Source: a bacterium
Lineage (GTDB): Bacteria; Gemmatimonadota; Gemmatimonadetes; Gemmatimonadales; Gemmatimonadaceae
NCBI GenBank assembly: GCA_902812375.1
Contig: CADDZN010000001.1
Location: 1 to 53,827, forward strand
Reading direction: 5' to 3'
Length of the DNA: 53,827 nt
Part shown: positions 25,805-28,581 of the stretch, piece after piece
Numbering within the stretch: the first letter of the stretch is position 1
Layout of the letters: the number at the start of each line of letters is the position of its first letter
The notes under the pieces: model-generated
Databases searched by the model: none
Told to the model about the DNA's origin: nothing
What the model saw: the letters and a program-made list of their open reading frames with translations, nothing else
Translations under genes and position numbers: made by a program

Positions 25805-25833
25805 TTGACTTTTCCACATAAATCGGCTAGGGT
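25805..25833 (+). promoter_or_regulatory. dnaA promoter with a very short or absent leader
   Basis: TTGACT at 25805-25810 and TAGGGT at 25828-25833 are spaced 17 bases apart. The expected start is around 25840, at or within two bases of the dnaA ATG (25842). No Shine-Dalgarno sequence is seen. Leaderless or near-leaderless translation is inferred. Confidence 0.6.
25810..25818 (+). promoter_or_regulatory. DnaA-box-like 9-mer TTTTCCACA in the dnaA promoter
   Basis: One mismatch from the DnaA box TTATCCACA, lying inside the -35/-10 spacer of the dnaA promoter. DnaA bound here would compete with RNA polymerase, fitting the known autorepression of dnaA in other bacteria. It is the only near match in this spacer. 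Confidence 0.5.
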
Positions 25834-25841
25834 AGCGCGTC

Positions 25842-27260
25842 ATGTCCCTCAGTCCCATTGAAGTCTGGAAACTCCTCCTTGATCGCGCCCGCCAGGAGCT
25901 TCCAGACCAAACCTTTCAGGCCTGGCTCGAGCCAACGGAAGCGCTATCGATTGAAGGAGGTACGCTTTTCGTCGGGGCTCCAGATCAATTCACAGCCGAT
26001 TGGAACGAATCCAAACATTCCGTGTTACTGTCGAGCTATGCCCCGATAGTTCTTGGGCACCCGCTCAACGTTGCCTTTCGAGTTAACGAAGAGCGAAAGA
26101 AGCGCTCTCAGATGGATTTTTTCGTCGCGCCTCCACCTGTGCCACCAAGGACACAAAGCGGACATAATGGAAACAATTTGGCGCCTCTAAGCCAACGCTA
26201 CACCTTTGACCTCTTTGTAATTGGGAAATCGAACGAGCTCGCCGCTGCAGCAGCTCTCACCGTAAGCCAAGCCCCCGGCCGAGTGTACAACCCACTCTTT
26301 ATTTACGGGGACACCGGCCTTGGCAAAACCCATCTGATGCAGGCGGTCGCTCACGAAACGCTTCAACGGAATCCCGATACCCGAATAACCTATGTTGGGA
26401 CCGAGCAGTTCATGAACGAGCTCATCGGTTCAATTCTGGAACGAACCGGAGCGGACTTCAGACGCCGGTACCGCGAGACTGATCTTCTGTTGATCGACGA
26501 CGTCCACTTCCTGAAAGGTCGAAAAGAAGCGACCCAGGAAGAGTTTTTCCATACTTTCAATGCTCTATATGAGGCGGGCCGCCAGATCGTACTTACCAGT
26601 GATCGGCCTCCCTCAGAAATCACTGGACTCGAAGCAAGGCTTATAAGTCGCTTCCAGTGGGGAATGGTCGCCGACATAAGCCTACCCGACTTTGAGCATC
26701 GAGTTGCAATCCTCAAGCAAAAAGCACAGCTCGACCGGTTGGAGCTCACCATTCCAGATGACGTAATTCACTTCATCGCTGAGCACGTCCGCTCAAACGT
26801 CAGAGAGCTCGAGGGCTCGATAATAAAGCTCCTCGCCTATGCGTCTCTAAAACACAAGGACATAACGGTAGAGGTCGCTCGTGAGGCGCTTCGGGACAAG
26901 TTGCGTGCGATTGAGGGATTACAGGCAGAGGGTAACGGCGTCTTGAACGTTGCCTCGATCCAACAGGCTGTCGCCAAGGAGTGGGGTGTGACTGTCGAGG
27001 GTTTACGTTCCAAGACGAGAACGAAAACGCTCACGACCCCTCGTCAGATCGCCATGTATCTCACACGTGAGCTCCTCGCAACACAGTTGGTCGAGATTGG
27101 GAGTGCCTTCGGAGGTAGAGATCACTCGACCGTTATCCACAGCATTGAAAAAGTTCAACAGGCAGTCTCAAAAGACGCACAGCTCAAGACAAGAATTAAT
27201 AGAATCCGCGGACTGTTGGAAACTTTCAACACCAAGTCCGAAGGTGCGTGGAAACAGTGA
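25842..27260 (+). CDS. dnaA: Chromosomal replication initiator protein DnaA
   Basis: A 472-residue DnaA. Domain I occupies roughly residues 1-85 and a short linker follows. The AAA+ domain III begins YTFDLFVIGKSNELAAAAAL, with Walker A GDTGLGKTHLMQ and Walker B LLLIDDVHFL. The C-terminal DNA-binding domain IV carries the signature GGRDHSTVIHSIEKV. It binds DnaA boxes and opens the origin. The ATG appears to be at or next to the transcript start. The gene is divergent from rpmH and followed by dnaN in the same direction after a 208-base spacer that may contain the unwinding site. Confidence 0.98.
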   Translation: MSLSPIEVWKLLLDRARQELPDQTFQAWLEPTEALSIEGGTLFVGAPDQFTADWNESKHSVLLSSYAPIVLGHPLNVAFRVNEERKKRSQMDFFVAPPPVPPRTQSGHNGNNLAPLSQRYTFDLFVIGKSNELAAAAALTVSQAPGRVYNPLFIYGDTGLGKTHLMQAVAHETLQRNPDTRITYVGTEQFMNELIGSILERTGADFRRRYRETDLLLIDDVHFLKGRKEATQEEFFHTFNALYEAGRQIVLTSDRPPSEITGLEARLISRFQWGMVADISLPDFEHRVAILKQKAQLDRLELTIPDDVIHFIAEHVRSNVRELEGSIIKLLAYASLKHKDITVEVAREALRDKLRAIEGLQAEGNGVLNVASIQQAVAKEWGVTVEGLRSKTRTKTLTTPRQIAMYLTRELLATQLVEIGSAFGGRDHSTVIHSIEKVQQAVSKDAQLKTRINRIRGLLETFNTKSEGAWKQ

Positions 27261-27371
27261 GCTTCTCAATTGGAAGGCGTAGCCAGAGCATTTTCAGCCG
27301 CGTTTTCCAACATTCGATCGCACATCAACCGGCATAGCGGAAGCACAGTGCCTTTCATAAGTTAGAGCGAA

Positions 27372-27440
27372 TTCAACACAGCTCCACAGTACCTACTACC
27401 GCTACTAGTTTTTTTCTCTTTTAAAAGAGAAGCAATAGAA
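27372..27440 (+). other. Candidate oriC unwinding element (DnaA boxes, DnaA-trios, AT-rich tract)
   Basis: In the dnaA-dnaN spacer, in order: degenerate DnaA-box-like 9-mers TTCAACACA (27372-27380) and AGCTCCACA (27380-27388), then a triplet series TAC-TAC-CGC-TAC-TAG (27394-27408), then an AT-rich run to about 27440. Known bacterial basal unwinding systems have exactly this order: DnaA boxes, DnaA-trios, then the melting region. The boxes are weak (two to three mismatches), so this is a proposal, not a demonstrated origin. Confidence 0.45.
27414..27431. repeat. Perfect 18-bp AT-rich palindrome between dnaA and dnaN
   Basis: TTCTCTTTTAAAAGAGAA is self-complementary, with nine-base arms and no loop. 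It follows a run of T and lies 37 bases before dnaN. It could be part of the melting region, a protein-binding site or a weak transcription terminator for dnaA. Confidence 0.9.
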
Positions 27441-27468
27441 CCTCACTCGAATCCCACAGAGGGTAGGA

Positions 27469-28581
27469 ATGCGCTTTACGATCTCTCGCGAAAAGCTTCA
27501 GGAGGGGCTGGCGGCTGTAGCAGCGAGCATTCCCGCAAAGACCACCCTTCCCGTGCTGGCTAATATCCTGCTCGAGACCACGGATAAGGGAATCAAACTT
27601 TCCGGGACCGATCTCGACATTGCAGTTAGCACCGAAGTTATGGCGGATGTCGATGCGCCTGGAGCAGTAACAGTTCCAGCGAAAAAGCTTGCTGAGATTG
27701 CTCGAGAGCTTCCGCCAGCTCCGGTAAAGATTGGTGCTGTTGGGGAGCAGAGGGTTACGCTCGAGTGTGGAAGATCTCGCTTCAAGTTGTTGGGTCTGCC
27801 ACGGGATGAATTTCCCACCTTTCCTGCAGTGCGGTTCAACGAGAGTTGGAGGATTCGATCGGGAGACCTTCAGCAACTGATTTCTCACACTTCGTTTGCT
27901 GTATCTGCGGAAGAGAGTCGTCCAATTCTGAATGGCGTGCTTTGGGAATTGAGGCCTGATCGCATGCGGATGGTTGCCACCAATGGCCATCGTCTGGCAA
28001 AGATGGATATCCCCATTGACTCGGCGAACGCACCTCCAAGCGACTTGATCGTTCCGCCAAAGGCGCTTGAGCAGGTCCGTAGATTGTTTCCCGCTGAGGA
28101 AGAGTTGGAGATTGCTCGCGGTGAGAACCATATCGGTTTTAGATCTCCATTCACCGCTGTTTTTACTCGACTCATCGAAGGCCCGTATCCGAACTATGAG
28201 CAGGTTATTCCGAAGGACAATGACCGGGTAGCTGTTGCCGATAAGCAAGCGCTCGCTAGCGCTTTGAAACGGATGTCAGTCATTGCCTCAGATCAAACCC
28301 ACAGAATTCGACTCTCGTTCAATGCTGGAATGCTGAAGTTCAGCGTTCAGACGCCAGACCTTGGTGAGGCACAAGACGAGCTGCCCATTCGCTATACCGG
28401 TGACCAGCTTGATATAGGCTTCAATGCAAGCTATCTGCTGGAGATCTTGCGCTATATCCCAAGCGATGAAGTCCGGATGACGTTCAAGGCGCCCGAAAGA
28501 GCAGCGACTCTTGAGCCCGAAGCCTGGAAAGATCCGGCTTCCTATATGTGTCTCGTAATGCCGTTGCGACTTGTCGACTAG
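27469..28581 (+). CDS. dnaN: DNA polymerase III beta sliding clamp
   Basis: A 370-residue DnaN with the three-domain clamp pattern: MRFTISREKLQEGLAAV start, a central FAVSAEESRPILNGVLW motif, and a C-terminal end reading CLVMPLRLVD (family: ylvmPvrl). It is the processivity clamp for the replicase. A GGGTAGGA ribosome site touches the ATG. It follows dnaA after a 208-base spacer, the conserved order. Its stop overlaps the end of the convergent unknown gene by 4 bases. Confidence 0.98.
   Translation: MRFTISREKLQEGLAAVAASIPAKTTLPVLANILLETTDKGIKLSGTDLDIAVSTEVMADVDAPGAVTVPAKKLAEIARELPPAPVKIGAVGEQRVTLECGRSRFKLLGLPRDEFPTFPAVRFNESWRIRSGDLQQLISHTSFAVSAEESRPILNGVLWELRPDRMRMVATNGHRLAKMDIPIDSANAPPSDLIVPPKALEQVRRLFPAEEELEIARGENHIGFRSPFTAVFTRLIEGPYPNYEQVIPKDNDRVAVADKQALASALKRMSVIASDQTHRIRLSFNAGMLKFSVQTPDLGEAQDELPIRYTGDQLDIGFNASYLLEILRYIPSDEVRMTFKAPERAATLEPEAWKDPASYMCLVMPLRLVD

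Follow-up and report, generated by a model that had tools for sequence, protein, structure and literature searches.

Introduction

The replication origin of Escherichia coli, oriC, contains a left and a right array of DnaA boxes, and its unwinding element is located outside these arrays. The basal unwinding system (BUS) of Bacillus subtilis comprises DnaA-boxes #6 and #7 together with DnaA-trios (PMC8287927, PMC10721633). The spacer between the better box and the trios is up to 16 nt long in BUS sequences, with a published peak at 10-13 nt (PMC8287927). Directly opposite the trios, B. subtilis carries the DnaD recognition element (DRE), a series of 5'-TnnT-3' repeats that is read by DnaD (PMC10201434). 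How two helicases load on opposite strands is a stated open question (PMC10721633, PMC10201434, PMC13326638).

Here we describe the dnaA-dnaN region of a soil Gemmatimonadota bacterium from the family Gemmatimonadaceae. It lies within a stretch of 53,827 nucleotides, hereafter the window, from a 3.23 Mb MAG in 437 contigs. A literature search, with most subscription papers outside its reach, returned no origin study on Gemmatimonadota, nor any measurements of DnaA binding or origin melting in these bacteria.

Results

Organization of the dnaA-dnaN gap

The dnaA and dnaN genes are adjacent and co-oriented, and are separated by a gap of 208 bp (Table 1). From left to right, the gap harbors TTCAACACA, AGCTCCACA, the GTAC spacer, CTACTACCGCTACTA, a T run, TTCTCTTTTAAAAGAGAA, GCAATAGAAC, AATCCCACA and the dnaN ribosome-binding site. 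The original prediction placed an unwinding site here, with two adjacent degenerate DnaA boxes, a triplet series and an AT-rich palindrome in the order known from the BUS. Both boxes are present, the palindrome is perfect, and the order is borne out, with position and spacing conserved across the phylum. The triplet series is real as well, its conventional register being CTA, one base before the TAC frame first proposed. The site very probably constitutes the BUS of the chromosomal origin, oriC, and the gap is probably where the chromosome first opens for copying.

Table 1. Sequence features of the dnaA-dnaN region, in window coordinates.
Feature	Position	Strand	Remarks
Likely dnaA promoter, TTGACT - 17 nt - TAGGGT	25805..25833	+	Putative promoter assignment
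Strong DnaA box, TTTTCCACA	25810..25818	+	At -35/spacer of the likely dnaA promoter
dnaA	25842..27260	+	472 aa; ORF; Pfam: DnaA_N, ATPase and C-terminal helix-turn-helix domains
Possible third DnaA box, TTAGAGCGA (TTAGACCCA in close relatives)	27362..27370	+	Very degenerate; about 9-10 nt upstream of box 1; tentative
Degenerate DnaA box 1 (box #6-like), TTCAACACA	27372..27380	+	Starts -21 from trios
Degenerate DnaA box 2 (box #7-like), AGCTCCACA	27380..27388	+	Starts -13 from trios; 8 nt from box 1
Spacer GTAC, 4 nt	27389..27392	+	Box 2 to trios; sequence
DnaA-trio array, CTA CTA CCG CTA CTA	27393..27407	+	Complement 3'-GAT GAT GGC GAT GAT-5', presumed DnaA-bound strand
Perfect 18-bp AT-rich palindrome, TTCTCTTTTAAAAGAGAA	27414..27431		Core of presumed unwinding element
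Inverted trio-like run, GTT CTA TTG CTT CTC TTT	27424..27441	-	Six phased N-T-N triplets
Right-hand degenerate DnaA box, AATCCCACA	27450..27458	+	5/9; orientation of left boxes; just before dnaN ribosome-binding site
dnaN	27469..28581	+	370 aa; ORF; Pfam

The two boxes are arranged in tandem in the same orientation, and end 12 nt (box 1) and 4 nt (box 2) ahead of the trios. The box 1 spacer thus falls within the published 10-13 nt peak (PMC8287927). A trio array is defined by at least three phased 3'-NAN-5' triplets, with 3'-GAT-5' preferred; four of the five trios in the window are CTA, and CCG interrupts the run. Under the strict (.A.){3,} rule, the run that continues in phase past CCG (CTA CTA GTT TTT TTC) still yields at least three triplets. 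Each box agrees with TTATCCACA at 6/9 positions, and the weakness of the boxes noted in the original prediction is confirmed, with three mismatches each. The published BUS program calls for one box with at most two mismatches to TTATCCACA, and would miss the window copy because both boxes have three. This threshold is a detection cut-off and no mechanistic requirement. The candidate third box contains a TT that is conserved about -30 from the trios, and shows a mean of 5.3 mismatches, compared to a background of 6-7.5 at its offset.

Uniqueness and conservation of the pattern

Across the 53.8-kb window, CTACTANNNCTACTA is matched exactly only once; four matches appear when up to two mismatches are allowed, versus 0.75 expected. 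The pattern TCCACA-(2-7 nt)-CTNCTNNNNCTACT occurs a single time in the 3.2-Mb genome. Exactly one match to the box-plus-trio pattern is found in 16 of 41 related genomes, and in all 16 cases it directly follows dnaA.

The best match to (CTA)5 reaches at least 12/15 in 97/106 distinct Gemmatimonadales dnaA-dnaN gaps, a score attained by about 0.7% of dinucleotide shuffles. The trio array is also retained in the majority of the other orders covered: it is present in most loci of the sister orders (78 loci in 56 clusters) and in three outgroup-class loci, which carry TTATCCACA-type boxes and CTAATAATAATAG. Over 97 relatives, the mean number of mismatches to TTATCCACA has minima of 3.9 at -21 and 4.0 at -13, surrounded by values of mostly 6-7.5, and these minima coincide exactly with the two boxes originally predicted. 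Conservation of the triplet spacing in relatives, proposed at the outset as a check, is thus observed across the phylum, the boxes being fixed at these two offsets. The homologous boxes of relatives are near the canonical sequence, and TTATCCACA itself is reached in the outgroup class. The better box at the homologous place has at most two mismatches in 43/97 Gemmatimonadales and in 58/78 sister-order loci. The outgroup locus L221 displays the same 8-nt box offset, with a near-canonical TTATCCACATATCCACA followed by CTAATAATAATAG.

Two variations were observed among the relatives. A TATGATGA triplet series, possibly altered trios, follows the boxes and replaces the CTA repeats in L211 (genus g50), L332, L339 and L341 (sister orders). 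The dnaA-dnaN gap is enlarged in L021 (571 bp), L022 (1226 bp), L026, L080 and L084, and in some of these, inverted repeats of the GCTGTTAGCTGTTGGCT type follow on the right-hand side of the unwinding site.

The DnaA protein and the strong DnaA boxes

The best PDB match of the window DnaA is B. subtilis DnaA on BUS DNA (8btg, E 7e-122). In an alignment with 8btg, the residues involved in trio capture (E183, N187, I190, I193, R202, K222, E223 and E228, B. subtilis numbering) are all conserved, as is the arginine finger R264. The window DnaA has R in place of N196, the residue in contact with the third base, which is not captured.

The original prediction proposed that the weak boxes may point to a divergent DnaA recognition sequence. 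In the window, the segment of DnaA that recognizes the box is GGRDHSTVIH, and in B. subtilis it is GGRDHTTVIH, indicating a normal domain IV. A strong box (at least 8/9) is found upstream of dnaA in 97/103 relatives, always in the direct (+) orientation; within the genus its position is conserved, about -32 relative to the dnaA start codon. The normal recognition segment and the strong canonical box before dnaA therefore argue against a divergent recognition sequence, and we reject this explanation as unsupported. As judged from these comparisons, the two boxes of the window are simply weak sites.

The strong box at the likely dnaA promoter probably serves dnaA autoregulation and lies outside the unwinding site. 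A perfect TTATCCACA is also present inside dnaA, at positions 27133-27141; it overlaps the codons for VIH, a portion of the DnaA signature, and is probably a coding coincidence. The statement that nothing similar exists elsewhere between rpmH and dnaN holds for the trios, but strong boxes are located elsewhere, at 25810 and 27133.

Other DnaA-like proteins were noticed in these genomes. The genome of the window encodes a second, shorter one of 334 aa (contig C3; L002:1465-2469, - strand), which comprises ATPase and helix-turn-helix domains without the N-terminal domain (Pfam). Another, larger one (about 590-800 aa) is widespread in Gemmatimonadota (L347:71-1846 and L348:412-2280, both on the - strand, and many other genomes). 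In it, two DnaA ATPase-like regions are arranged in tandem, and a DNA-binding domain is apparently missing.

Position of the origin

A GC skew minimum far from the locus would speak against an origin at this place. The genome of the window itself being the 437-contig MAG, we computed the skew on 20-kb samples of four large assemblies from relatives. Within the 53.8-kb window, GC skew is uninformative. In G071 (4.64 Mb, dnaA at the record start), the skew switches at dnaA (p 0.003). In G107 (5.18 Mb, dnaA at 3.69 Mb), the best origin is at 3.62 Mb, with p 0.013 at dnaA. Both are complete genomes from the family of the window; they belong to a common genus and are thus incompletely independent. 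In G061 (L108, CP070716.1, a MAG), the best origin is at 2.84 Mb and dnaA at 2.08 Mb, about 0.75 Mb apart, which could reflect a misassembly, a rearrangement or a different origin. G108 is flat and gives no usable skew. The predicted location therefore agrees with the skew in two of the three informative genomes, all of them relatives, and disagrees in G061. These data support an origin between dnaA and dnaN, short of proof.

The G061 offset would also fit a reading in which the signals in the gap regulate dnaN and the true origin lies elsewhere, and the right-hand box is indeed positioned just before the dnaN ribosome-binding site. However, the ordered box-box-trio architecture is found phylum-wide and at one place only per genome, and the GC skew agrees with this place in the two complete genomes of the same family. 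We consider regulation of dnaN highly improbable as an explanation of these signals.

The far side of the AT-rich core

The original prediction overlooked the far side of the palindrome, where relatives carry conserved inverted signals. Counts in this section are given per cluster, a grouping that only partly removes relatedness, and some motifs and intervals were picked after the sequences were viewed. On the right flank, 47/55 sister-order clusters contain an inverted DnaA box scoring 7/9 or better, versus 5.2 expected (z 17.8); most of these boxes lie +34 to +38 relative to the end of the trios. It is comparably strong to the left boxes, which are found in 52/56 clusters. Direct-orientation boxes are absent from this flank in the sister orders, and inverted trios are modest there (z 3.7).

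The Gemmatimonadales right flank is composed differently. Inverted trios (GTAGTA on the + strand) occur to the right of the AT core in 30/59 clusters versus 8.1 in shuffles (z 9.0; about 8-9 overall). Two controls, forward trios on the right flank and inverted trios on the left flank, are not enriched. A right-hand direct box at about +31 to +44 reaches at least 7/9 in 20/35 clusters, versus 2.7 expected. Inverted DnaA boxes are not enriched on this flank in Gemmatimonadales, and the window has none there. The inverted trio-like run of the window is weak when taken alone (p = 0.02 for the score, 0.05 for the run). Gemmatimonadales and the sister orders thus appear to share a structured right flank built of different parts, of which the window reads as a weak example.

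The inverted repeat could form a hairpin or cruciform, with no second trio array. Such a fold could arise in single-stranded DNA once the origin is opened, or in RNA as a structure or terminator between dnaA and dnaN. The perfect 18-bp palindrome of the window would fit this explanation, as would the palindromes that recur in close relatives with varying sequence. We compared the complementarity of the left and right arms within a genome to that between genomes. The arms pair better within than between genomes in the Gemmatimonadaceae (p = 0.008 for the core, a weak matched-pair signal) and in the sister orders (p = 0.0002), both values being uncorrected for relatedness. However, the folding energy is barely below that of shuffles (mean z -0.6; -0.1 for the core alone), the + strand has no T run after the stem, and the other, non-family Gemmatimonadales display no matched-pair signal. 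A hairpin without a second trio array is thus unlikely, and the small folding z-scores, together with the lack of a matched-pair signal in most Gemmatimonadales, led us to reject the idea that it fully accounts for the inverted repeat. A contribution of pairing is possible in the family of the window and in the sister orders.

Since the arms have no within-genome pairing advantage in most Gemmatimonadales, a second trio array is favored over a hairpin there. The right-flank signals suggest that DnaA could also load on the other strand, at a second site. Extending the BUS reading, the origin would then be partly mirrored, with this second entry site facing inward, so that two DnaA oligomers, one per strand, would open the AT core from both ends and place one helicase on each strand. 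The inverted box of the sister orders, where direct boxes are absent, points in this direction, as do the inverted trios of the Gemmatimonadales with their unenriched controls. Nor does a hairpin account for the symmetry in the non-family Gemmatimonadales, whose arms show no pairing advantage within a genome over pairing between genomes. On the other hand, the right-hand box is direct in the order of the window itself, the inverted trios are marginal in the window (p 0.02-0.05) and modest in the sister orders, and the counts carry the relatedness and post hoc choices stated above. We therefore regard a two-sided origin as possible rather than probable. If it exists, the species of the window would carry a degenerate version. 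Our literature search, again with most subscription papers outside its reach, found neither inverted trios nor a DnaA box facing trios across a melting core.

Discussion

The left module of the site most likely works as in B. subtilis. The degenerate boxes at 27372-27388 would anchor DnaA via domain IV, and ATP-DnaA would polymerise rightwards along the strand complementary to CTACTACCGCTACTA. The AAA+ domain would capture two bases, G and A, in every 3'-GAT-5' trio. This would melt the trio array together with the neighboring AT-rich palindrome, allowing helicase loading, and replication would start there. As in the B. subtilis BUS, two tandem boxes, a short spacer, CTA (3'-GAT-5') trio repeats and an AT-rich core lie beside dnaA and dnaN, and the trio-capturing residues are conserved in DnaA. 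Unlike in B. subtilis, both boxes of the window are weak, with three mismatches each.

What is new on top of the known BUS layout is an apparent structure beyond the AT core, with inverted signals in relatives. Like E. coli oriC, such an arrangement would have DnaA sites in opposite orientations and two sub-assemblies of DnaA. It differs from oriC in that the unwinding element of the sister orders sits between the oppositely facing sites. The inverted trios or inverted DnaA box that relatives carry beyond the AT core also set these origins apart from the B. subtilis BUS as published (PMC8287927, PMC10721633). As with the DRE (PMC10201434), a loading signal for the second helicase is proposed on the strand opposite the trios. 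In contrast to the DRE, the right half in Gemmatimonadota is located beyond the AT core and resembles DnaA trios or boxes.

This analysis traces the BUS through Gemmatimonadota and provides a large set of sequences for comparison, in which the spacings are fixed. With origins that have a conserved inverted box or inverted trios beyond the melting core, one answer to the helicase-loading question would become directly testable on short DNA scaffolds. A two-sided origin, if true, would be an origin-encoded solution to bidirectional helicase loading.
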